Positions 1,257 to 15,083 of a stretch of DNA of 64,000 bases are shown here, one piece after another. The position numbers and the translations under genes are program-made. Every line of letters starts with the position of its first letter. Position 1 is the stretch's first letter. Under the pieces are notes generated by a model. It was not told where the DNA came from and did no database searches. It worked only from the letters and a program-made list of their open reading frames with translations. Location of the stretch: the NCBI RefSeq assembly GCF_000299335.2, contig NZ_CP004387.1:2542001-2606000 (forward strand). Direction: 5' to 3'. This stretch comes from Isoalcanivorax pacificus W11-5 (GTDB lineage Bacteria > Pseudomonadota > Gammaproteobacteria > Pseudomonadales > Alcanivoracaceae).

Positions 1257-1982
1257 TCACTGCTGCGCATGCGCCGCGATCTTTGCAAAACGGCTCAGCA
1301 GCGCCGTCGCCTGCGGCGTGTCACGCACTTCGGCAGCGAGCGCTGCCTGATCACGCCCCTGCCCGGTTAGCACGTCGGCCATCTGCGCGATGTAGCAACG
1401 CATCGCAGTTGCGGAAAATTCCGGATGAAACTGCACGCCCCAGGCGCATGCACCGATACGAAATGCCTGATGAGGTTCATGTTCGCCCCGGGCCAGCAGG
1501 ACGGCAGCCTCCGGCAACGCCAGCACCGACTGGCGGTGCACCAGTTGTACGGCGAAACGCGGTGCTGTGTCGCCGAACAAGGCATCATCACGCGCCTGCT
1601 CCAGCAACGTTACGTCGGCCGTCCCTATCTCGATGCCACCGGGGTGATAGTCGACTCGCCCGCCGAAGGCGTGTGCCAGCAACTGGTGTCCGTAACAGAT
1701 GCCCAGTATTGGCACACCCGCCCCGATCAATGCCCGCAGCCAGTCCGCCGCACGTTCACTCCAGGGCTCCCGGTCGCTGACCATGCTGTGCGAGCCGGTC
1801 ACCACCACGCCGGCCAGGGTGTCGGCGGCGGGCAAGGTATCTGCCTCGCGGATATCCAGCGTTGTCACCGGCAGATGTTCACCCAGGCCATCGGCAATCC
1901 AGTTGTCGAAATCGCCCAGGCGGGCGCTGATCCCGGGGAAGGTGCGGCCAGCACAGGCAATCAGAATCGGCTTGGACGCCAT
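1257..1982 (-). CDS. Class I glutamine amidotransferase (GMP-synthase-like domain)
   Basis: The product is 241 residues and consists only of a class I GATase domain. The nucleophile elbow GICYGHQ carries the catalytic Cys (about residue 96), and the His/Glu pair is in GVQFHPEFS. An oxyanion-strand motif VVTGSHSMVSD precedes it. The family takes ammonia from glutamine and passes it to an acceptor; stand-alone members of this size are usually labelled glutamine amidotransferase or GMP-synthase-like, and the acceptor here is unknown. The start is ATG 1982 with GGAG upstream; the preceding TTG at 1985 is less likely. It is divergent from the phospholipase-type gene at 2128. Confidence 0.88.
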   Translation of the reverse strand: MASKPILIACAGRTFPGISARLGDFDNWIADGLGEHLPVTTLDIREADTLPAADTLAGVVVTGSHSMVSDREPWSERAADWLRALIGAGVPILGICYGHQLLAHAFGGRVDYHPGGIEIGTADVTLLEQARDDALFGDTAPRFAVQLVHRQSVLALPEAAVLLARGEHEPHQAFRIGACAWGVQFHPEFSATAMRCYIAQMADVLTGQGRDQAALAAEVRDTPQATALLSRFAKIAAHAQQ

Positions 1983-2127
1983 CAATATTCTCCAACCTCA
2001 CTATGCAGCTTCATTCTCCGGCCTCACCGGAGAGGTCCGGTTACAGCACGGCGCGAAGTGTACCATCTGGTCCGCCGGCATACGCATGGCTGTCGGCGCT
2101 GCCGGCGGCTATGATCGTGAGGACGCC

Positions 2128-3690
2128 ATGATCACGGACCAGACCATGCCGCCCTTCGCCCGACTGCTGTTTCTCCTGCTCTGCTACCTGTCCTTTGGCG
2201 GCTGCGCCCTGCCGGCTGTGGATCAGGGCCTCAACGCCCAGCGCTTGCCGGACGGCGCCCTGCACGGCACCTGGCTGGACAGCACCACGCTGCCGCTGAC
2301 CAACGCCCATCCCGGCCTCTCCGGCCTGATCGCCCTGCCCGATGCCCACCAGGCGTTCGCCGCCCGCATGGTGCTGGCCGAAAGCGCTGAACGCACGCTG
2401 GATGTGCAGTATTACATCTGGCACCAGGACGTCACCGGCACGCTGTTGCTGAACGCACTGCACGACGCGGCCGACCGGGGGGTGCGTGTGCGGCTGCTGC
2501 TGGATGACAACGGCGTGCCCGGCATGGATGAGTTGCTGGCCGCGCTGGACACGCACCCGAACATGACGATCCGGCTGTTCAATCCGTTTGCCCTGCGCAA
2601 ACCGAAGATGCTCGGCTTCCTGGCCGGGTTTCCGCGCACCAACCGTCGCATGCACAACAAATCCTTCACCGTCGACCAGCGTGTGGCGGTTATCGGCGGC
2701 CGCAATATCGGCGACGAATATTTCGGCGCCAGCACCGGCGTGCAGTTCACCGATCTGGATGTGCTCGCCATCGGCCCGGCGGCGGAGCAGGTGACCACGG
2801 ATTTCGATCGTTACTGGGCCAGCCAGTCCGCCTATCCTGTAGCGCAGATATTACCGGCACCGAAACACGACCGGGTGTCGTTACTGGACGCAGCAGTGGA
2901 ACAGGCCGGGCGGGATGACGACGCGGTCAAGTATCTCGGACTACTGGAAGCCAGCCACTTTACCGATCGCCTCGACAGCGGCGAGATCCACTTCGAGTGG
3001 GCGCCGGTCCGCATGATCAGCGACGACCCGGCCAAGGGCCTCGGCAAGGCTGCGCGCAGTGACCTGATGATCAGCCAGCTACCGCCATTGCTATTGGCCG
3101 CAGAACATTCCGTGGACCTGATTTCGCCCTACTTCGTCCCCACCCGGCCCGGTGTGGCGCTTTTGACATCTCTGAGCCAGCGAGGTGTGCGCGTGCGCAT
3201 TCTGACCAACTCGCTGGAAGCCACCAACGTGGCCGCCGTACACGCCGGCTACGCCCGCTATCGAAAAGACATGCTGGCCGCTGGCATCGAGCTGTTTGAA
3301 ATGCGCAAGCTGTCGGAAGATATGGAGCGCAATGAGAGCGCTGGTCCGTTCGGCAGTTCCGGCGCCAGCCTGCATGCCAAGACGTTTGCCATCGATGGCC
3401 GCCAGGCGTTTATCGGTTCGTTCAATTTTGATCCGCGTTCGGCGGAACTGAACACGGAGCTCGGCTTCATCATCGACAGCCCGGTGCTGGCCCGGGGTAT
3501 CAGCAATGTGTTCGACCAGCAGGTACCCGGGCAAGCCTACGCGGTGCATCTGGACGAGCGGGGCAAACTGTACTGGACGGAACAGCACGGCGACAACGAG
3601 CAGCGTTTTGAACGTGATCCGAAGGTGGGGTTGTTCAAGCGCGCGCGGGTCAAGGTACTGTCCTGGCTGCCAATCGAATGGATGCTGTGA
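2128..3690 (+). CDS. Phospholipase D-family lipoprotein (cardiolipin synthase-like), copy 1
   Basis: The product is 520 residues. It begins with a lipoprotein signal (MPPFARLLFLLLCYLSFGGC, Cys acylated) and contains two HKD motifs: MHNKSFTVDQRVAVIGGRN and LHAKTFAIDGRQAFIGSFNFD. Two HxKxxxxD motifs make one active site in phospholipase D and cardiolipin synthases, which transfer phosphatidyl groups through a phospho-histidine. The length and lipoprotein anchor resemble the YmdC/ClsC branch. I chose ATG 2128 because GTGAGGA lies six bases upstream; the longer open frame to 1699 is upstream shadow. The next gene is a clear paralogue, 91 bases downstream. Lipid substrate and membrane side are inferred. 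Confidence 0.88.
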   Translation: MITDQTMPPFARLLFLLLCYLSFGGCALPAVDQGLNAQRLPDGALHGTWLDSTTLPLTNAHPGLSGLIALPDAHQAFAARMVLAESAERTLDVQYYIWHQDVTGTLLLNALHDAADRGVRVRLLLDDNGVPGMDELLAALDTHPNMTIRLFNPFALRKPKMLGFLAGFPRTNRRMHNKSFTVDQRVAVIGGRNIGDEYFGASTGVQFTDLDVLAIGPAAEQVTTDFDRYWASQSAYPVAQILPAPKHDRVSLLDAAVEQAGRDDDAVKYLGLLEASHFTDRLDSGEIHFEWAPVRMISDDPAKGLGKAARSDLMISQLPPLLLAAEHSVDLISPYFVPTRPGVALLTSLSQRGVRVRILTNSLEATNVAAVHAGYARYRKDMLAAGIELFEMRKLSEDMERNESAGPFGSSGASLHAKTFAIDGRQAFIGSFNFDPRSAELNTELGFIIDSPVLARGISNVFDQQVPGQAYAVHLDERGKLYWTEQHGDNEQRFERDPKVGLFKRARVKVLSWLPIEWML

Positions 3691-3781
3691 CATCGTCAGG
3701 CATGACAACGCAACGCATGGCAGGGCTGCTTCGGGCCCGCTATGCTTCCCCGATCACCTCCACCACAGGGGCCAGCGCGCA

Positions 3782-5335
3782 ATGACGCCCACCGGCGTTT
3801 CGCTCCGCACCTTCATACTGGGCAGCCTGCTGGCCCTGCTTGGCGGTTGTGCCCTGCCCGCGCTGGACGATCGCGTCGACAGTCGCGTGCTGCCCGAACA
3901 GGCATTGCAGGGCGCCTGGCTGGACGCCGCCACCGCCCCGCTGACCGGTCATCACCCCGGCACGTCCGGCATCCTGCCGCTGGCCGACCCACGCCAGGCC
4001 TTTGCCGCGCGCATGATGCTGGCACGCAGCGCGGAGCGCACCCTGGATGTGCAGTACTACATCTGGCACATGGACATTACCGGCACACTGCTGCTGGAAG
4101 CCCTGCACGATGCGGCGGACCGGGGCGTGCGCGTGCGACTGCTGCTGGACGACAACGGCATCCGTGACATGGACGATGTACTGACAGCGCTGGACCAGCA
4201 CCCGAACATGGAAGTACGGCTGTTCAACCCGTTCAGTATCCGCAAGCCGAAAACGCTTGGCTTCATCACGCATTTTTCCCGCGCCAACCGGCGCATGCAC
4301 AACAAATCATTCACGGCAGACCAGCGCGCCACCATCATTGGTGGACGCAACATCGGTGACGAATATTTTGCCGCCACCGACGGCCTGCTGTTTTCCGACC
4401 TGGATGTGCTCGCCATCGGCCCGGTGGTCGGGGAAACCGCCCTTGATTTTGATCGCTATTGGGCCAGTGGTTCGTCCTATCCGGTATCGCTGATTCTGCC
4501 GGCCGTCAGCGCAGAACGCCTCGCGGCGCTGACCGATGCCGCGCAACAGGCGCAGCATGATCCGCGCGCTGAACAGTACCTGCAGGCCTTGCAGACGCAG
4601 GCGCGTGGCGACCATATCGCCCTGGATGCACTGCGCTTTGAATGGGCGCCGACCCGCCTGGTCAGTGATGATCCGGCCAAAGGATTGGGCGACGCCGACG
4701 ACAGTGAACTGCTGATCAGCGCGCTGCCGGCACTGATCGGCGAGGCGACCGAAAGTTTTGATCTGGTCTCGCCCTATTTTGTGCCGACCGCCGAGGGTGT
4801 CCGGGCACTGGCGGCCCTCTCCGCGCGCGGCGTGCGGGTCCGCGTGCTGACCAATGCACTGGAGGCTACCGACGTGGCAGCCGTGCATGCCGGCTATGCC
4901 AAGCGACGGCGCGACATGCTGGAAGCCGGCATCATCCTGCTGGAAACCCAGCGGCAACCCGGCGCACCGGGCCGTAACGAGAGCGCCGGGCCGTTCGGCA
5001 GTTCCGGCTCCAGCCTGCACGCCAAGACCTTTGCCGTGGACCGCCGCACTGTGTTTATCGGTTCGTTCAATTTCGACCCGCGTTCCGCGCGGCTGAACAC
5101 CGAGCTGGGTTTTGTCATCGACAGCCCGACGCTGGCCGGGGCCATCAGCGACGCGTTCGAGCAACGCATTCCGCAAGAAGCCTACCGCGTGCAACAGGAT
5201 GCGCGCGGGCGCCTGTACTGGACAGAGCAGCGTGGCGACGAAGAAATCATCCATGCCCGCGAACCCGGCACCAGCCTGCTCAAGCGTCTGGGGGTAAAGG
5301 TGTTGTCGTGGCTGCCGATCGAATGGCTACTGTAA
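3782..5335 (+). CDS. Phospholipase D-family lipoprotein (cardiolipin synthase-like), copy 2
   Basis: The product is 517 residues and closely related to the previous gene along its whole length. It has a lipoprotein signal ending LLALLGGC and HKD motifs MHNKSFTADQRATIIGGRN and LHAKTFAVDRRTVFIGSFNFD. It shares long stretches such as ADRGVRVRLLLDDNG, and both copies end VKVLSWLPIEW-(M/L)-L. The pair is a tandem duplication that has diverged moderately, mostly between the two HKD halves. The start is ATG 3782; the open frame to 3506 overlaps copy 1 and is not coding. The expected role is phospholipid transfer at the cell envelope; specificity is unknown. Confidence 0.88.
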   Translation: MTPTGVSLRTFILGSLLALLGGCALPALDDRVDSRVLPEQALQGAWLDAATAPLTGHHPGTSGILPLADPRQAFAARMMLARSAERTLDVQYYIWHMDITGTLLLEALHDAADRGVRVRLLLDDNGIRDMDDVLTALDQHPNMEVRLFNPFSIRKPKTLGFITHFSRANRRMHNKSFTADQRATIIGGRNIGDEYFAATDGLLFSDLDVLAIGPVVGETALDFDRYWASGSSYPVSLILPAVSAERLAALTDAAQQAQHDPRAEQYLQALQTQARGDHIALDALRFEWAPTRLVSDDPAKGLGDADDSELLISALPALIGEATESFDLVSPYFVPTAEGVRALAALSARGVRVRVLTNALEATDVAAVHAGYAKRRRDMLEAGIILLETQRQPGAPGRNESAGPFGSSGSSLHAKTFAVDRRTVFIGSFNFDPRSARLNTELGFVIDSPTLAGAISDAFEQRIPQEAYRVQQDARGRLYWTEQRGDEEIIHAREPGTSLLKRLGVKVLSWLPIEWLL

Positions 5336-7051: not shown

Positions 7052-7996
7052 ATGGCCCTCGCAAATCGCAAGATCGGATACGACGAAGTGGTCACCCGCG
7101 ACATCCATTTCCCGATGAATGTCAACAATGTCGCGCGCCACTGGCTCAACAATGATCCTTGGACCACCCACTGGATGAACGCCATTCTCGCCGCAGTACC
7201 GGATGGCGAGCGCTGGGTGATGAACTCGGCCCGTCGGCAACTGGACAAGCTCGATGACCCGGAAGTACGCAAGGCCGCCATCGAGTTCATCCGTCAGGAG
7301 CGCATCCACGCCCGCGAACACGACGAGATGAATGCCATCGGCGTGCAACACGGGGTGCCGATCGACAAGGTCGAGGGTGTATTCAAACTGATCCGCAAGC
7401 AGCTGCAACATCGCCTCAGCGATGACATGCAAAGCTCCATCGCTGCCGCCTTCGAGCATTTCACCGCCATTATCTCGTCGGTGCTACTTGAGCACCCGGA
7501 GCTGTTTGACGATACCCACCCGGAGTTGCGCGCCATGCTGTACTGGCACTTCGTCGAGGAGACCGAGCACAAGAGCGTCAGCTTCGACGTCTTTGTCGAC
7601 GCCAGTGGCGGCGGGCTGCGAAGCTACCGGCTGCGCACCAGCGGCATGCTGCTGGCCATCGCGCTGGGGTTCCCGATCATGATCGGCAACCAGACCTATC
7701 TGTTGTACAAGGATCGGCAGGTGCTGAATCTGCGCTCGGCGGCACACATGCTGAAAGTCCTGTTCTGGCGCCCGGGCATTCTCTCGAAGGTGCTCGGCGG
7801 GGTGCTGCCCTACTTCTCGCCGACCTTCCACCCCTGGGATGATGACAACCGGGAGGTGATCCGTATCTGGAAGCGGGCCTACGAAAAGACCGGCGATACC
7901 CAACAGGCCTATCAGGCACTGCGTGATCACCGTGCTGGCAAAGCCCGGGGGGCAACCCCGGCACCCACAGCCGAGGCGGCTTGGGGACAGGCATGA
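7052..7996 (+). CDS. PF10118-type predicted metal-dependent hydrolase, paralogue 1
   Basis: The product is 314 residues. It matches the PF10118 family by its conserved helical core with spaced His/Glu residues: RQERIHAREHDEMN, then FEHFTAI, then WHFVEETEHKSVSFDVF. These could build a ferritin-like or other metal site. A hydrophobic segment follows (GMLLAIALGFPIMIGNQTYL), and near the C-terminus is FHPWDDDN. Biochemical function is unknown. Two paralogues lie in the window (30316-31200 and 38866-39735), each in a unit with the shared operator. It is the first gene of a four-gene operon; its stop overlaps the SDR start (ATGA). The recurring link with BVMO, SDR and acyl-CoA genes suggests a step in hydrocarbon or ketone catabolism. 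Confidence 0.85.
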   Translation: MALANRKIGYDEVVTRDIHFPMNVNNVARHWLNNDPWTTHWMNAILAAVPDGERWVMNSARRQLDKLDDPEVRKAAIEFIRQERIHAREHDEMNAIGVQHGVPIDKVEGVFKLIRKQLQHRLSDDMQSSIAAAFEHFTAIISSVLLEHPELFDDTHPELRAMLYWHFVEETEHKSVSFDVFVDASGGGLRSYRLRTSGMLLAIALGFPIMIGNQTYLLYKDRQVLNLRSAAHMLKVLFWRPGILSKVLGGVLPYFSPTFHPWDDDNREVIRIWKRAYEKTGDTQQAYQALRDHRAGKARGATPAPTAEAAWGQA

Positions 7997-8820
7997 AGAA
8001 AAAGCCCTTGCCGCCATCGCGCGGTGCCGCTGCGGTCATTACCGGCGCTGGCAGCGGCATCGGTCGCAGCTTCGCCTATGAAGTGGCCCGCCGCGGCGGC
8101 GCCGTAGTGTGTGTCGATATCCATGCCGAACGCGCCGCTCAGGTGGCCAGCAGTTTGCGGGCGTTGGGCAGTCACGCGGTGGCCCGGCAGTGCGATGTTG
8201 GCGATGCGGCGCAGATGCAATCGCTGGCCGAGGACGCCGAGGGCCTGCTTGGCCGCCCGGTGACTCTGGTGATCAACAATGCCGGCGTCGGTCTCGGTGG
8301 GCCGATCGGCGAAGTATCACTAGATGACTGGCGCTGGTGCATGAACGTCAATCTCTGGGGCGTTATCCACGGCTGTCATTTCTTTGCCCCGGCGCTCCGC
8401 GATCTCGGTTACGGCGGCATCATCAATGTTGCCTCCGCCGCCGCATTCGGCGCCGCCCCGGAAATGACCACCTATAACGTAACCAAGGCCGGGGTGCTGG
8501 CACTGTCGGAAACACTGGCAGCGGAGCTGGCTGGCACCGGAGTGCACGTCACCGCCCTGTGCCCGACCGTGGTACCGACCAATATCGTTGAGGATGGCCG
8601 ATTACCGGAACGGCGCCGGGATTTTGCCCGCTCGGCAATGACCCGGTTTGCCTTGACCAATGCTGACCGGGTGGCACGCCAGACCCTTGATGCGTTGGAC
8701 CGGGGTGATCTGTACATGCTGCCGCAGATTGATGGCCGCATCGCCTGGCGACTGAAGCGTCTGGCGCCACGGCTGTACGCCCGGGCGGTCGGCGAAACCT
8801 ACCGGCTGCTGGCCGATTAA
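7993..8820 (+). CDS. Short-chain dehydrogenase/reductase (SDR), paralogue 1
   Basis: The product is 275 residues and a classical SDR. It has the nucleotide-binding motif TGAGSGIGRS, the NNAG strand (VINNAGVGLGG) and the catalytic Tyr-x-x-x-Lys (YNVTKAGVLALSETLAAEL). An Asp at the end of beta-2 (VCVDIHAE) favours NAD(H). It probably oxidises a secondary alcohol to the ketone used by the downstream BVMO, or handles the resulting alcohol; the substrate is inferred from context. The start ATG 7993 overlaps the previous stop, which supports translational coupling. A second SDR of the same type is at 29427-30287. Confidence 0.9.
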   Translation: MKKKPLPPSRGAAAVITGAGSGIGRSFAYEVARRGGAVVCVDIHAERAAQVASSLRALGSHAVARQCDVGDAAQMQSLAEDAEGLLGRPVTLVINNAGVGLGGPIGEVSLDDWRWCMNVNLWGVIHGCHFFAPALRDLGYGGIINVASAAAFGAAPEMTTYNVTKAGVLALSETLAAELAGTGVHVTALCPTVVPTNIVEDGRLPERRRDFARSAMTRFALTNADRVARQTLDALDRGDLYMLPQIDGRIAWRLKRLAPRLYARAVGETYRLLAD

Positions 8821-8849
8821 CCACTGACATCAGGATACAAGGAGTCGAC

Positions 8850-9803
8850 ATGGCCTCGATCCCTGCCAACATAATGAAGCTGATGCTGCGCGTGGGCGTC
8901 AAACGTGACATCCGTGATCCGGACAAGCTGGTGCGCCACCTGCGTCGGGTGATGAATGCGCCGCTGGCGCCCTCGCCGGTACCTCGGGGCGTACGCCTGC
9001 AACACGCCCGCGTTGGCGGGGTGCCGGGCCAGTGGCTCAGCTCGCCGGACCCGACGGTGACAGTGCTGTACCTTCATGGCGGCGCCTTTATTGGCGGGCG
9101 GCTCGCGACCTACCACAATTTTTGCGGGCGTCTGGCCAAGGCACTCAACGCCCGGGTGTTCCTGCCGGACTACCGTTTGGCCCCGGAGCATCCCTACCCG
9201 GCAGCCCCGGACGATGCGCTGGCTGTCTACCGCGAGCTGCTTGATGACCCGCGCCCGATGATCATTGCCGGCGACTCCGCCGGCGGCAATCTGACCCTGG
9301 TTACCCTGCTGCGCGCTCGTGACCTGGCCTTGCCGATGCCGGCCTGCGCGCTGGCCATCTCGCCCGGCGCCGATGCCCGTGGTGAACTGATGTCGCGGCA
9401 GGCCAACAGTGACAGCGATGCCATGCTGTCGCGCCGCATGATTGATGTCGCCACCCGGGTCTATCTGGCTGGGGCCGACCCGACACTTCCCTACGCCTCA
9501 CCCTGTCTGGGGGACTACAGCGGTCTGCCGCCTTTGATGCTGACCGTCAGTGCCGAGGAATGCCTGCGCGATGACGCCCATGCGGTAGCCCAGCGTGCCC
9601 GTGATGCCGGCGTGCCGGTACAGCTCCTGGAACGGGCGGATCTGCCCCATGTCTGGCCGGTATTTACTTTTCTGCTGCCGGAAGCCCGCCGCGATTTCGG
9701 CATCATCGTCAGCGCCCTGCGTCGGCATCTGGCCCCGACCGGCAGCACGTCTGCGGACCGCCCGGCGCAGGCCGCCACTGTTGTCAGCGAAGCCCCGGCA
9801 TGA
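8850..9803 (+). CDS. Alpha/beta hydrolase (hormone-sensitive-lipase-type esterase)
   Basis: The product is 317 residues. It has the HSL-family oxyanion motif HGGAF and the nucleophile elbow GDSAGG, with a late Asp/His (ADLPHVWPVF) completing the triad. The family hydrolyses short- to medium-chain esters. Placed directly before a Baeyer-Villiger monooxygenase and overlapping its start by four bases (ATGA), it is well suited to cleave the ester made by that enzyme into an alcohol and an acid. The start ATG 8850 has AAGGAG upstream. The C-terminal 25 residues are low complexity. Confidence 0.9.
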   Translation: MASIPANIMKLMLRVGVKRDIRDPDKLVRHLRRVMNAPLAPSPVPRGVRLQHARVGGVPGQWLSSPDPTVTVLYLHGGAFIGGRLATYHNFCGRLAKALNARVFLPDYRLAPEHPYPAAPDDALAVYRELLDDPRPMIIAGDSAGGNLTLVTLLRARDLALPMPACALAISPGADARGELMSRQANSDSDAMLSRRMIDVATRVYLAGADPTLPYASPCLGDYSGLPPLMLTVSAEECLRDDAHAVAQRARDAGVPVQLLERADLPHVWPVFTFLLPEARRDFGIIVSALRRHLAPTGSTSADRPAQAATVVSEAPA

Positions 9804-11404
9804 ACATGCCCGCCTTTACCCGACCGGCAAGCACACAGACCATCGTCCCGGACCACGAGGTCATCATCATTGGCGCCGGCATTTCCGGTATCGGTGTTGC
9901 CATCCAGCTGCGCGCCGATGGTATCGACGACATCCTGATTCTCGAACGCAGCGAGGATGTCGGCGGCACCTGGCGCGATAACCGCTATCCGGGTATCGCC
10001 GTCGACATCACCTCGTTTACCTATTCGTTTTCGTTCGAGCAGAACGCCAACTGGTCGCGGGTATTCGCGCCGGGCAACGAGCTGCACCACTACACGCGCC
10101 GGGTGGCGAGCAAGTACGGTATCTATCCGCTGATTCGTTTTGGCGTGGAAGTCACCCGTGCCCGCTTCGACGACGCCAACCACCTCTGGGTGATCGAGCT
10201 TGACGACGGTCGGCAACTTCGTGCGCGCCACATCATCTCCGCCGGTGGCGGACTGATCTCGCCGAAAATGCCGGATATTTCCGGGTTGGAGCGTTTCGAG
10301 GGCGAGGTCATCCATACCGCCCGCTGGCCTGACAGCCTCGACCTGACGGGCAAGCGCGTCGCCGTGATAGGCACCGGCGCCACGGCGGTGCAGCTGATCC
10401 CGGAAATTGCCGGCAAGGCCAAGCAGTTGGATGTCTATCAGCGCACCCCGATCTGGGTGCTGAAAAAGCCGGACCGTGTCCTGCCGAGCTGGCTCAAGAC
10501 CCTGTTCCGGTTCGCGCCGGGGCTGCAACGCAGCCTGCGCGGCGCCACCGATGCCGCCAGTGAAACCCTTATGGTGCTGTCGGCGATCTATTATCGGCAG
10601 GCCCCCTGGCTGGTGCGAATGTGTGAGAAGGCCGGCATCAACAACCTGCGCGAGCAGCTGCCTGATCACCCCGAACTCTGGGACAAACTGACACCGAAAT
10701 ACGGTTTCGGCTGCAAGCGGCCCACCTTCTCGAACGAATATTTCCGCACCTTCGCCCGCGAGGATGTCGAGCTGGTGACCACCCCGATTCAGCACATCAC
10801 CGCGCGCGGCATCACCACCAGCGACGGTCGCTCACGGCGCATCGATACCCTGATTCTGGCCACCGGCTACAAGACCTTCGAGAAGGGCAATATTCCGTCC
10901 TTCGAGGTGATCGGCACTAACGGCGTCGACCTGGGCCAATTCTGGCACGACCACCGTTATCAAGCCTATGAGGGCCTGACCGTGCCGGGCTATCCAAATT
11001 TTTACATCATGCTCGGCCCCTACGCGCTGATTGGCACCTCCTACTTCAAAATGGTGGAGGGCAATGCCATCCACCTCTCACGCTGCATTCGCGAGGCCAA
11101 CAAGCGTGGTGCAACGCGGGTAGAAATTCGACAATCCGAGCATGATGCCTACTTCCGCGACATCCAGAAACGCCAGCAGAACACCGTGTTCCTGAATCAC
11201 AACTGCGCCCTGTCGAACAGCTACTACTTCGATCATCACGGGGACGCGCCGATGTTACGCCCCTCCACCTCGATGGAGATGCTGTGGCGGGCGAAACACC
11301 TGCCGATGGACCATTACCGCTTCAGCCGCTACCCGGATCCGCCCGACATCCCGGATCTTGCCCGGATAAAGGCCCATGCCCGGCTGGTCCCCGGCACGTC
11401 CTGA
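9800..11404 (+). CDS. Flavin-containing Baeyer-Villiger monooxygenase
   Basis: The product is 534 residues. It has an N-terminal FAD Rossmann motif (IIIGAGISGIGVAIQL) and the GGTWRDNRYPG motif. The full BVMO fingerprint FEGEVIHTARWP is at residues 166-177, and the second Rossmann motif VIGTGATAVQ follows. These enzymes use NADPH and O2 to insert oxygen next to a carbonyl, turning ketones into esters or lactones. It closes the operon PF10118 - SDR - esterase - BVMO, a logical alcohol-to-ketone-to-ester-to-products sequence. The natural ketone is unknown; long-chain ketones from subterminal alkane oxidation are a reasonable guess. A second, AlmA-type flavoprotein sits at 27890. Confidence 0.9.
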   Translation: MNMPAFTRPASTQTIVPDHEVIIIGAGISGIGVAIQLRADGIDDILILERSEDVGGTWRDNRYPGIAVDITSFTYSFSFEQNANWSRVFAPGNELHHYTRRVASKYGIYPLIRFGVEVTRARFDDANHLWVIELDDGRQLRARHIISAGGGLISPKMPDISGLERFEGEVIHTARWPDSLDLTGKRVAVIGTGATAVQLIPEIAGKAKQLDVYQRTPIWVLKKPDRVLPSWLKTLFRFAPGLQRSLRGATDAASETLMVLSAIYYRQAPWLVRMCEKAGINNLREQLPDHPELWDKLTPKYGFGCKRPTFSNEYFRTFAREDVELVTTPIQHITARGITTSDGRSRRIDTLILATGYKTFEKGNIPSFEVIGTNGVDLGQFWHDHRYQAYEGLTVPGYPNFYIMLGPYALIGTSYFKMVEGNAIHLSRCIREANKRGATRVEIRQSEHDAYFRDIQKRQQNTVFLNHNCALSNSYYFDHHGDAPMLRPSTSMEMLWRAKHLPMDHYRFSRYPDPPDIPDLARIKAHARLVPGTS

Positions 11405-11445
11405 CGAGACCGCCTCCAGCACGCTCGGACACTGAAAATAATACA

Positions 11446-11463
11446 TTTGGCTGTATGGCCAAA
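11446..11463. promoter_or_regulatory. 18-bp palindromic operator, copy 2 (TTTGGCTGTATGGCCAAA)
   Basis: The TTTGG and CCAAA arms match perfectly with the eight-base spacing seen in the other copies. It lies 58 bases upstream of the reductase start at 11521 and directly abuts a long perfect inverted repeat (11464-11499). It is therefore in position to control the reductase - MerR-like - ferritin-like operon. Confidence 0.75.
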
Positions 11464-11499
11464 CAAATCATGTAGTGCTACTCTGCACTACATGATTTG
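11464..11499. repeat. Perfect 15-bp-arm inverted repeat in the leader of the reductase operon
   Basis: The arms CAAATCATGTAGTGC and GCACTACATGATTTG are separated by six bases (TACTCT). It is immediately downstream of operator copy 2 and ends 21 bases before the ATG at 11521. There is no U-run, so it is not a classic terminator. It could be an operator for the MerR-like protein encoded two genes on, or a structured 5' leader. Confidence 0.75.
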
Positions 11500-11520
11500 T
11501 CAGAATCAGGATTTAACCCC

Positions 11521-12624
11521 ATGCAAACAGCCGCCTTTCATCCCTCGCTGATCGTTGCCGGCCCGCGCCCCAGCGCCAGTCGCTGGACACGCTTTGTCAG
11601 ACCGGAGCAGCTGTACCGGCAGGCCCGCGTAGCAGCGGTCGAGCGGCAGACCGAAGATGCCGTGTCGATTACTCTTGCGCCTATGGATGACAAGCCCTGT
11701 GACGCCGCTGCCGGGCAGTACCTGACACTGATCGCCGACGTGAACGGCGCGCGTATCAAGCGCGCCTACTCCCTCAGCCAGCTGCCTGATCAGAACGCCT
11801 TTACCGTCACCTGCAAGGCGATTGCCGGGGGGCGTATGTCCGGCCACCTCAACAGCGCACTGAAGGCCGGCGACCTTCTCCAGTTTGCCGGTCCCAGCGG
11901 CGAGTTCCTGCTGCCGGACAGCGTCCCGGCCCACTACGCCTTCGTCGCCGCCGGCTCCGGCATCACCCCGATCATGGCCATGCTTGAACAGCTGCTTGAG
12001 ATTGACCGGTGCAGAACCCCGATTACCCTGCTTTTTGGCAATCGTCGCGAAAAAGACATTCTGTTCAGGGACCGTCTTGAGCAACTGGTCAGTGCGCATG
12101 CCAACCTGAGCGTTAGCTATTACCTCACCCGGCCGGGCAAGCGCTGGAAAGGTCAACAGGGGAGGATCAGCGCCGAAGCCCTGCCGCAACAACCGGGCAC
12201 ACATTACTTCCTGTGCGGGCCGGACACCTTCAACAGCAGTCTGCGTGAAGCGCTGCTGAACTTGGGCATCAGTAGTACGGCGATCAGCACGGAGCAATTC
12301 ACCCAGAGCTCCGACGAGAGACGCCCGCACCCTGCCGACCCGCATCCGGTGCAGTTCCGACTGGCCGACGGCAGCGAACACGAGGTAACCGTGCGTCCGG
12401 GCGAAAGCCTGCTGGAGGCCGGCCTGCGTGGCGGCGTGCCGTTGCAGTTCAGCTGCACCATGGGTGGCTGTGGTCATTGCAAGGTCACCATCGAGACAGG
12501 CGATGTCGCCACTGATGAACCCAATTGCCTGACCGAGTCCGAGCGTCAGGCAGGCCAGACACTGGCCTGCTGCGCCTGGCCGCACAGCAAGGCGGTGGTG
12601 CAGGTAGCGGAGACCGGACTGTGA
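11521..12624 (+). CDS. NAD(P)H:acceptor oxidoreductase with FAD, NAD and C-terminal 2Fe-2S domains
   Basis: The product is 367 residues. The order is an FAD-binding barrel (RAYSLS flavin motif), a ferredoxin-NADP reductase-like nucleotide domain (AAGSGITPIMAM, then YFLCGPDTF) and a plant-type ferredoxin domain. The cluster motif is CTMGGCGHC with a later Cys in ACCAW. This layout is that of electron-transfer partners of membrane desaturases and aromatic or di-iron oxygenases: one chain moves electrons from NAD(P)H to an oxygenase. The ferritin-like di-iron protein two genes downstream is the likely acceptor. I chose ATG 11521; the frame runs up to a TTG at 11497 inside the inverted repeat. 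The stop overlaps the next GTG start. Confidence 0.9.
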   Translation: MQTAAFHPSLIVAGPRPSASRWTRFVRPEQLYRQARVAAVERQTEDAVSITLAPMDDKPCDAAAGQYLTLIADVNGARIKRAYSLSQLPDQNAFTVTCKAIAGGRMSGHLNSALKAGDLLQFAGPSGEFLLPDSVPAHYAFVAAGSGITPIMAMLEQLLEIDRCRTPITLLFGNRREKDILFRDRLEQLVSAHANLSVSYYLTRPGKRWKGQQGRISAEALPQQPGTHYFLCGPDTFNSSLREALLNLGISSTAISTEQFTQSSDERRPHPADPHPVQFRLADGSEHEVTVRPGESLLEAGLRGGVPLQFSCTMGGCGHCKVTIETGDVATDEPNCLTESERQAGQTLACCAWPHSKAVVQVAETGL

Positions 12625-13385
12625 GCGCCGCCATGAACCTGCGTATGGCCGAGCTGGTGCGTCGCTCCGGAGTGAGCCGCGAGACCATTCATTACTATCT
12701 GCGCGAAGGATTGCTGCCGCGCCCGCAAAAAACCGCGCGTAACACCGCGCTTTATGGTGAAGAGCATGTCCAGCGTCTGACCCTGATCCGCTCACTGCGC
12801 GATGAGCACTTGCTGTCACTGAAAGCGATCAAGGGTCTGCTGGCAGATCAGACACAGCTCAGTTTTACCCCGGATCAGCTCGCCACGCTGGCGCGCCTGC
12901 GGCGGCACAAACTGGGCAACCAGACTGCCGACGCCGACAACAGCCTGCGCACCGAACAACTGGCCGACGAACTGGCACTTTCCGATGCCGAGTTGGCCGA
13001 GCTGCGCGCCGGCCATTTCCTGTCGGCCGACGATAACGAAATAGCGGATCAGGACGAGGCCGAAACGCTGCGCCTGTGGGCCCTGCTGCGCAACGCCGGC
13101 CTGACGCCCGCGCGCGGCTTCAGCCCACGCGACATGGCCTATATCAATCAGGCGGCGGACCTTTTGTTTCAGCAGGAAGTGACCTTTTTCCAGCAACGCC
13201 TGCACAACCTGAGTGAAAAGGAAACCGACGCCCTGCTGCACACCGTGATACCGGCTATCAACCGGCTGGTCTCCCTGCGCCATGAACGCAAGATCGCCGC
13301 GCTGCTGGAAAGTTATGCCACTGCCAGCGACGCGGCAGCGCACGCAACACCATCCGAATCGTCCGAGGAGCCTCACCATGGATAA
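12621..13385 (+). CDS. MerR-like transcriptional regulator
   Basis: The product is 254 residues from GTG 12621, or 250 from ATG 12633. The N-terminus is a MerR winged helix: MAELVRRSGVSRETIHYYLR, then LYGEEHVQRLTLIRSLRDEH. The remaining 180 residues are helical with no recognised sensor. MerR proteins bind long palindromes and twist promoter DNA. The perfect inverted repeat at 11464-11499 at the head of the same operon is a candidate site, so autoregulation is likely but unproven. It overlaps the reductase stop and the start of the ferritin-like gene, showing tight coupling of sensor, reductase and oxygenase. Confidence 0.82.
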   Translation: MSAAMNLRMAELVRRSGVSRETIHYYLREGLLPRPQKTARNTALYGEEHVQRLTLIRSLRDEHLLSLKAIKGLLADQTQLSFTPDQLATLARLRRHKLGNQTADADNSLRTEQLADELALSDAELAELRAGHFLSADDNEIADQDEAETLRLWALLRNAGLTPARGFSPRDMAYINQAADLLFQQEVTFFQQRLHNLSEKETDALLHTVIPAINRLVSLRHERKIAALLESYATASDAAAHATPSESSEEPHHG

Positions 13386-14625
13386 CAGCAAGATCGCCCG
13401 ACCCAGACTGGAGCGCATGCTGAATGGCATGCCCCTGAAGATGCAGAACAAGGTCACCCAGGTACTGGAAAACATTTCCCTGGTTGCCGAGATACGGGAC
13501 CCGAAAGTTGGCATCAGCATGTTGCCGTCGGCCTACCGTGGCTTATGGCAGAAAAAAGGCAAGAGTGAGGATGGTGTGCTGATGAAGTCCGGCCACCCGG
13601 TGCATTTCGACCTCAACTATGGCTCGGATTTTCCTGAAATGTACGACCTCTACCGTCGCGCCGTCGCCAATCAGTGGGATGGCGAATGGCAGCTCGACTG
13701 GAGCACCCAGGTCGACCCGATGAACCCGGAAGTACCGATTCTCGGCAGCACGCCCTTTATTCCCTTTGATGATCTGGAAGCTGAAGGCATCAAGCTCAGC
13801 GCCAGGGAAAAGCAGGAGCTGACCTACCACTTCTCGGCCTGGATGCTGTCGCAGTTCATGCACGGCGAACAGGGTGCACTTTACGCCTCTGCCCAGTGCA
13901 CCGAGTCGGTCAAATGGGTCGACGCCAAACTGTACGGCGCCACCCAGGTGATGGATGAAGGCCGCCATCTGGAGGTGTTCCTGCGCTATCTGGAAACCAA
14001 GCTGGAGCGCATGTACAAGGTCAACGACAACCTGTTCGTGATCATCGACGACCTGCTCACCGATTCGCGCTGGGATATCAAGTTTCTTGGCATGCAGATC
14101 ATGGTTGAGGGTCTGGCACTGGGAGCCTTCTCGACCATGTACAACCAGACTGGCGAGCCGCTGCTGAAAAACCTGCTGCGCTATGTGATTCAGGATGAAG
14201 CGCGCCATGTCCACTATGGCGTGCTGGCACTGCGCGAACATTTCACCAAAAACCTCAGCGGGACAGAACTGCGTGAGCGTGAGGACTGGGCCTTCGAGGT
14301 CGCCATGCTGATGCGCAACCGTTTCTTCGCCCATGAGATCTATGACGAATGGTTTGCTCACAAGCTGTCCCGTGCCACCTGGAACCGGCTGATGTCGGAG
14401 TCACCAGCCATGACCAAGTTCCGCAGCATCATGTTCCAGCGATTGGTGCCGAACCTGCAATATATCGGCCTACTGTCGCCGCGCATGGAAAGCTACTACG
14501 AGAAGGCTGGCTTGATGGCCTATGTGGGCGGCAAGAACGCCAGCGAGCTGACCGAACAGGACCTGTTGCGCGACAACGACAAACTGGCTGAACAGGCCAT
14601 GAAGGATGCCCGTAACGCGGCCTGA
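13378..14625 (+). CDS. Ferritin-like di-iron protein (candidate oxygenase or desaturase)
   Basis: The product is 415 residues. It contains the full set of carboxylate-bridged di-iron ligands in ferritin-like order: E164 (HGEQG), E194-x-x-H197 (DEGRHLE), E244 (MVEG) and E274-x-x-H277 (QDEARH). This E...ExxH...E...ExxH pattern is shared by bacterial multicomponent monooxygenases, acyl-ACP desaturase-like and R2-like proteins. I cannot place it in a characterised subfamily. With the flavin/2Fe-2S reductase two genes upstream it could form a self-contained oxygenase system. ATG 13378 has GAGGAG upstream. The substrate is unknown; a hydrocarbon or fatty acyl chain is plausible from context. Confidence 0.8.
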   Translation: MDNSKIARPRLERMLNGMPLKMQNKVTQVLENISLVAEIRDPKVGISMLPSAYRGLWQKKGKSEDGVLMKSGHPVHFDLNYGSDFPEMYDLYRRAVANQWDGEWQLDWSTQVDPMNPEVPILGSTPFIPFDDLEAEGIKLSAREKQELTYHFSAWMLSQFMHGEQGALYASAQCTESVKWVDAKLYGATQVMDEGRHLEVFLRYLETKLERMYKVNDNLFVIIDDLLTDSRWDIKFLGMQIMVEGLALGAFSTMYNQTGEPLLKNLLRYVIQDEARHVHYGVLALREHFTKNLSGTELREREDWAFEVAMLMRNRFFAHEIYDEWFAHKLSRATWNRLMSESPAMTKFRSIMFQRLVPNLQYIGLLSPRMESYYEKAGLMAYVGGKNASELTEQDLLRDNDKLAEQAMKDARNAA

Positions 14626-14762
14626 GCATGGACCTGCTGCAGCCATCGCAAATCAGTTCGATCACAAATCAGCTCGCCGGCTCCGAAGCGTTGATCCAAA
14701 TGTTGAAGCAACTGAAATACCCGGGCCATTGCCCGCAAGTTAGTACTTTGAGGAGATAAGCT

Positions 14763-15083
14763 GTGGGAAAAATCATTTTTATCGAGCACGACAATACGGA
14801 ACATGCGGTGAACTTCGAGGCTGGCATCACCCTGATGCAGGTTGCTGTCGACAATGCGATTCCAGGCATTGATGGGGATTGTGGTGGTGAGTGCGCATGT
14901 GGTACGTGCCATATGATCATTCCCGACGAGTGGTTCGACAAAACCGGTGCCATCAGTGAAACGGAAGAACAGATGCTGTCGATGACGCCCGAAAGAAGCC
15001 AGACATCGCGGCTGGGATGCCAGGTTGAAGCCACCGAAAACATGGATGGCATGACTGTTCGGCTACCAGAATTCCAGATGTAA
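14763..15083 (+). CDS. 2Fe-2S ferredoxin of the CYP153 system
   Basis: The product is 106 residues of the adrenodoxin/putidaredoxin type. The cluster ligands are in CGGECACGTCH and the final Cys is in SRLGCQVE. The start is GTG 14763 with GAGGAG upstream. It lies 30 bases before the CYP153 gene and, with the reductase that follows, makes the three-component electron chain NAD(P)H - ferredoxin reductase - ferredoxin - P450 typical of class I bacterial P450s. The gap 14626-14762 holds no copy of the 18-bp operator, so this operon may be regulated separately or read through from upstream. Confidence 0.93.
   Translation: MGKIIFIEHDNTEHAVNFEAGITLMQVAVDNAIPGIDGDCGGECACGTCHMIIPDEWFDKTGAISETEEQMLSMTPERSQTSRLGCQVEATENMDGMTVRLPEFQM

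Follow-up and report, generated by a model that had tools for sequence, protein, structure and literature searches.

An alkane-locus operon of Isoalcanivorax pacificus W11-5 that joins an R2lox-related dinuclear-metal protein to a reductase and a MerR-type regulator

The stretch of DNA analysed here (64,000 nt of the Isoalcanivorax pacificus W11-5 chromosome, hereafter the window) contains a compact operon whose three genes encode an NAD(P)H reductase, a MerR-family regulator and a protein with a ferritin-like set of dinuclear-metal ligands (Table 1). An earlier interpretation made from the sequence alone (the sequence-only reading) had placed three overlapping genes here, and all three open reading frames were found on the plus strand where it had put them. 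The overlap is strict for the second and third genes, which share 8 nt; for the first and second it holds only if the regulator starts at GTG 12621, which gives a 4-nt overlap with the reductase stop, while a start at ATG 12633 leaves an 8-nt gap. The third gene is preceded by GAGGAG, 7 nt 5′ of its ATG.

Table 1. Coordinates of the operon genes and of the candidate operator (positions in the window).
Feature	Position	Strand	Remarks
NAD(P)H reductase, 367 aa	11521..12624	+	ATG 11521; FAD_binding_6 / NAD_binding_1 / C-terminal 2Fe-2S, PaaE-like order
MerR-family regulator	12621..13385	+	GTG 12621 or ATG 12633 start; N-terminal MerR HTH
Dinuclear-metal protein (ferritin-like, R2/R2lox superfamily), 415 aa	13378..14625	+	ATG 13378
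Candidate operator, perfect 16-bp inverted repeat ACAAATCATGTAGTGC-6-GCACTACATGATTTGT	11463..11500	.	20 nt 5′ of reductase ATG

The first gene is the NAD(P)H/FAD/2Fe-2S reductase that had been proposed, with complete domains and motifs. FAD_binding_6, NAD_binding_1 and Fer2 all exceed their Pfam cut-offs, and the corresponding motifs are intact (RAYS for FAD, GSGITP for NAD and C-x4-C-x2-C...C for a plant-type 2Fe-2S cluster). This architecture resembles that of the PaaE/BenC/MmoC-type reductases, with the 2Fe-2S domain at the C-terminus as in PaaE, which is also the top NCBIfam match (190 bits, far under the equivalog cut-off of 420.8). Unlike in those systems, the partner here would be a single-protein oxygenase, and PaaABC-type subunits are absent nearby.

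The assignment of the second gene as a MerR-like regulator is equally secure, since the MerR_1 HTH scores well over the Pfam cut-off (70.9 versus 21.6 bits). The predicted model matches MerR structures across the N-terminal part (pTM 0.42, moderate confidence), and the C-terminal part is long and predicted, again with moderate confidence, to be helical. The protein contains no cysteine, and a SoxR-type or thiol metal-sensor site is therefore excluded. Among 398 Pseudomonadota genomes, whole-length matches occur only in the window, in Zavarzinia (within the same operon) and at one further locus (L221), where the relative is 34-35% identical and the oxygenase is absent.

Between the preceding flavin monooxygenase (BVMO) gene, which ends at 11404, and the reductase gene lies an inverted repeat with arms at 11463-11478 and 11485-11500. 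It is the sole inverted repeat with perfect 16-nt arms in the window, where it has no second copy. Across the whole genome its 24-nt core has one exact site and one site with three mismatches; a reversed control pattern is equally frequent, and the three-mismatch site is at chance level. Imperfect TAGTG/CACTA palindromes occupy the matching position in the Zavarzinia, Solimonas and Fontimonas operons. A simple scan of 11380-14800, which is a weak test, gave no sigma-70-type promoter. Together the sequence comparisons support the repeat as the operator for the operon's own MerR protein, which would bind it 5′ of the operon, control this operon alone and respond to a small, probably organic ligand. 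The sequence-only reading had instead placed the operon in a regulon with CYP153. This is not supported, because the repeat core occurs elsewhere only as the one chance-level site; moreover, the BVMO and CYP153 blocks that flank the operon occur without it in relatives.

The third gene encodes a protein with a complete ligand set (E164, E194xxH197, E244 and E274xxH277), which is invariant in all members of an alignment of 56 family proteins whose identity to the window protein extends down to 34%. Conservation of this kind, as judged from the alignment, lies far beyond chance. Other invariant residues are H162, D193, R196, D273, W100 and W108. Of the earlier description as a di-iron protein, the full E...ExxH...E...ExxH set stands, but two irons are not compelled, since the metal preference of the R2lox relatives is Mn/Fe. 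The protein passes no Pfam or NCBIfam cut-off, its best NCBIfam match being R2-like ligand-binding oxidase (NF006200; 28 bits versus a cut-off of 194). Its structure model (mean pLDDT 90, pTM 0.89) is matched best in the PDB by ribonucleotide reductase R2 and R2lox, with Z values of 21-22 and an RMSD of ∼3 Å over 233-263 residues, so that the structure prediction proposed earlier as a check yields an R2/R2lox-type fold. Genes of this family are currently annotated just as ‘ferritin-like domain-containing protein’.

The second proposed check, a phylogeny, places the family on a well-supported branch of its own, and no characterised family claims the protein. In a joint tree this single branch (SH-aLRT 99, length 2.68) is separate from R2lox, from an R2lox-like actinobacterial set and from R2; a test of a clade comprising only the family and R2lox gave no rejection (p-AU 0.19), and the branches are long, so that the order of the groups is uncertain. 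Profile-profile matches are strongest to the R2lox-like set (98.7%, E 3e-16) and to R2lox (97.4%, E 1e-11), with AurF-type proteins at 87% and R2 at 86%. The R2lox-like set (L177-L190, from Actinomycetota, with several copies per genome), which by profile is the group nearest to the window family, scores under the R2lox cut-off, and its aligned member L177 has Val and Tyr at the R2lox cross-link positions.

Compared with the R2lox proteins GkR2loxI, MtR2lox and SaR2loxII, the window protein shares the predicted fold and has its six metal ligands at the equivalent positions; its W100 and D273 correspond to the R2lox Trp and Asp (hhalign columns), and Phe stands in place of the R2 radical Tyr. 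The tunnel position 171, occupied by Ala in R2lox and by Phe in R2 (PMC6399176), corresponds to A247, an alanine in 56 of 56 sequences, with a one-residue gap in the R2lox alignment immediately before it. In contrast, the cross-link residues Val72 and Tyr162, which are conserved in R2lox (PMC6399176), are replaced by Ala167 and Met239, both of them in every one of the 56 sequences. The window protein further differs in having ∼75 additional N-terminal residues and in the PaaE-like reductase and MerR genes that adjoin it. Because a defining feature, the cross-link pair, is missing, we do not class the protein as an R2lox, although on the aligned residues the family follows the R2lox plan. Searches for R2lox itself in Pseudomonadota gave only sub-cut-off proteins, and those inspected are R2-type.

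With class I ribonucleotide reductase R2 the protein has in common the fold and the metal ligands, but the radical-Tyr position is F201 (52 Phe and 4 Tyr in the 56 sequences) and the tunnel Phe is replaced by A247, so that R2 membership was not adopted. The tunnel alanine is the stronger point, since class Ic R2 proteins likewise lack the radical Tyr. A separate ordinary R2-type gene is present in the host genome.

Other ferritin-like families were considered on the same grounds. An AurF-type arylamine N-oxygenase, which is also ferritin-like and slightly similar by profile, is the least probable of the identities weighed and would be a considerable surprise. PF11583 does match 55 of the 56 members weakly, and a paralogue in the host's own genome passes its cut-off (46.4 versus 29.6 bits); the window protein, however, reaches only 14.9 bits against this gathering threshold, the profile match is 87% as compared with 97-99% for the R2lox sets, and the position of the third AurF histidine, which precedes the final ligand Glu by four residues, is V270 (55 Val and 1 Ile). 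This histidine is seen in both AurF-type proteins examined (L111 and L112) and is missing from the paralogue as well. The paralogue (L081:1435-2547, minus strand; G000:C1:2096895-2097794) is 42% identical to the window protein.

An aldehyde deformylating oxygenase-like enzyme (ADO), converting aldehyde to alkane, is very unlikely. What we take to be a ligand spacing near that of ADO, a weak Ald_deCOase match and a profile search that finds an ADO chain at 2.8e-6 speak for it. The Ald_deCOase score (PF11266; 15.7 bits) is nevertheless under the curated gathering cut-off of 28, the matched ADO chains have 212-276 residues as against 415, and R2lox proteins are reported to have shown no ADO activity when assayed elsewhere (PMC10867098). 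A multicomponent soluble methane/toluene monooxygenase was rejected, the operon having neither a second hydroxylase subunit nor a small regulatory protein and the protein no Phenol_Hydrox match, and AlkB membership was considered and not adopted; the earlier statement that the protein is not AlkB, not a methane/toluene-type monooxygenase and not AlmA thus holds. A literature search, which covered few subscription papers, gave no description of this family and no reported activity.

From bacterial and archaeal genomes, 79 loci of the family were retrieved; they are distributed over Pseudomonadota, Actinomycetota, Myxococcota, Leptospiraceae, Acidobacteriota and others. The closest oxygenases (83-87% identity) are those of Zavarzinia, Solimonas, Fontimonas and a Moraxellaceae assembly, where the order reductase-MerR-oxygenase is kept, and the accompanying reductases and regulators are just 57-60% identical (49% for the Moraxellaceae MerR). 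More distant members have the order MerR-reductase-oxygenase (L015, L019 and L020), an AraC gene divergent from the reductase-oxygenase pair (L007 and L018), or the pair with a different adjoining regulator or none. A directly upstream reductase (30-60% identity) recurs in one clade, with hosts in Gammaproteobacteria, Alphaproteobacteria and Actinomycetota; in a tree of 69 rows the 18 reductase-bearing ones are clustered, with 3 state changes versus a shuffled mean of 16.3. Some members of this clade (the Ketobacter group) have no adjacent reductase. From these gene neighbourhoods, the oxygenase, reductase and sensor appear as a portable unit in which the regulator varies (MerR, AraC or other). 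The idea of a self-contained oxygenase, reductase and sensor unit is supported for the operon in the window. At L019 a second family member (3980-5026, minus strand; 38% identical) precedes the MerR-reductase-oxygenase operon, ∼1 kb upstream of its MerR gene.

The operon is located between two blocks of oxidative genes. Upstream are genes for a PF10118 protein, an SDR, a hormone-sensitive-lipase-type esterase and the BVMO; downstream are those for a 2Fe-2S ferredoxin, a P450, a ferredoxin reductase and a FadL-like protein, of which the P450 is taken to be CYP153 and the last to be FadL on the basis of the sequence-only reading and general resemblance. Of four relatives read in detail, three have both flanking blocks, lying close to each other, and there the first block is oriented the opposite way; the three-gene operon is absent from all four stretches (one of which, L257, spans the region only in part). 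The window copy is found in none of the 56 relatives searched, whereas most genomes of the host's family carry the 42% paralogue. Since relatives have the BVMO and CYP153 blocks but no operon there, the operon is most readily interpreted as having been inserted where two conserved blocks meet, and not as an ancestral part of the CYP153 locus; the three genes were probably acquired as a unit. No direct repeat of at least 9 bases is common to the two operon junctions, the G+C contents of the neighbours span that of the operon, and no plasmid records with similar DNA were found. In related genomes, too, the upstream block (7052-11404) is found close to the P450 block, and its content would suit a ketone-to-ester route of subterminal oxidation. 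Further upstream, at 1699-5335, are two adjacent phospholipase-D-like genes (PLDc_2; open reading frames of 663 and 609 aa).

The nearest characterised relative, GkR2loxI, is reported to lower C10-C22 alkanes in crude lysate, with a double ligand mutant only partly impaired, and R2lox proteins bind or co-purify with fatty acids (PMC10867098, PMC6399176). The earlier guess of an oxygenase system agrees with the GkR2loxI report within these limits of lysate and mutant. On account of the fatty-acid binding, the GkR2loxI report and the adjacent reductase, we consider NAD(P)H-dependent aliphatic oxidation most likely, and propose a two-component oxygenase that hydroxylates or desaturates an aliphatic chain, with the locus favouring an alkane or a derived chain; this proposal has, in our estimate, an even chance of being correct. 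The 415-residue protein would be the catalytic component, a helix bundle of R2/R2lox fold with an Fe/Fe or Mn/Fe site and a substrate tunnel that would be open as in R2lox. The upstream reductase would pass electrons from NAD(P)H, via FAD and its own 2Fe-2S cluster, to the dinuclear site, which in its reduced form would activate O2 at every turnover. The enzyme would probably hydroxylate (or desaturate) a medium- to long-chain aliphatic substrate at an unactivated C-H bond; in an alkane locus such as this one, the substrate to consider first is an alkane or a chain derived from one. The system would differ from that of the GkR2loxI report, which was without a reductase, in that the operon encodes a complete NAD(P)H-FAD-2Fe-2S reductase beside the oxygenase.

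For an alkane speaks the position of the operon between the BVMO/esterase/SDR and ferredoxin-CYP153-ferredoxin reductase-FadL blocks; against it, the unit is not consistently beside alkane genes in other genomes, and distant members adjoin thioesterase or ACP/AMP-ligase genes, which point to acyl thioesters. The main competing explanation is thus a desaturase or hydroxylase of acyl-CoA or ACP lipids, serving membrane or storage-lipid remodelling, for which the alkane locus would be incidental; we regard it as possible though doubtful. The layout of regulator, reductase and oxygenase resembles that of fatty-acid desaturase loci. The paralogue in the own genome adjoins two open reading frames that by eye are PaaI-type thioesterase-like, after the Solimonas copy come a transglutaminase-like gene and one for a hot-dog thioesterase, genes for acyl carrier proteins, AMP-ligases and a PaaI thioesterase accompany a Streptomyces relative, and the fatty acids of R2lox (PMC10867098, PMC6399176) fit this explanation too. 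The thioesterase-linked members, however, form a separate, deeper clade (∼35-42% identity) in which the reductase is absent, and no acyl-carrier gene is adjacent to the operon in the window.

It is improbable that the protein is an oxidase or an O2- or peroxide-responsive redox protein, with reductase and MerR completing a stress module. MerR regulators often control stress responses, ferritin-like proteins include peroxide-consuming enzymes, and the module occurs in unrelated hosts; yet the tunnel alanine is kept as in the ligand-binding R2lox proteins, and the cysteine-free regulator offers no SoxR-type or thiol metal-sensor site.

The natural reaction and the electron source of R2lox-type enzymes are so far poorly established, and the operon brings what are apparently its own reductase and regulator, so that reductant, inducer and substrate are testable together. 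If the enzyme oxidises alkanes, it would constitute a further class of soluble single-protein alkane hydroxylase besides CYP153, LadA and R2lox, and its natural lack of the Val-Tyr cross-link would tell whether turnover needs that modification. It also offers a fold and a testable role for genes that so far carry only a ferritin-like name. Tentatively, the family as a whole might be an uncharacterised, cross-link-free dinuclear monooxygenase family of the R2 superfamily, distinct from R2lox and with a dedicated reductase and regulator: a soluble single-protein alkane (or acyl) hydroxylase, its cassette carried between phyla and its relatives extending to bacterial viruses.

Members of the family occur in 62 IMG/VR contigs, with the ligand-motif pattern unbroken in 53; viral members had no match in GenBank phage records or PHROGs. 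Full-length examples include L267:2893-4002 as well as those of L258, L259, L264, L272, L305 and others. In L267, taken from a 174-kb contig, the family gene has two 2OG-Fe(II) oxygenase-like genes and a virion-structural-protein-like gene as neighbours. The distant Streptomyces member (35% identity; L110:5887-7014) lies on a plasmid, and the carrier proteins, AMP-ligases and PaaI thioesterase that surround it are possibly those of a natural-product pathway.
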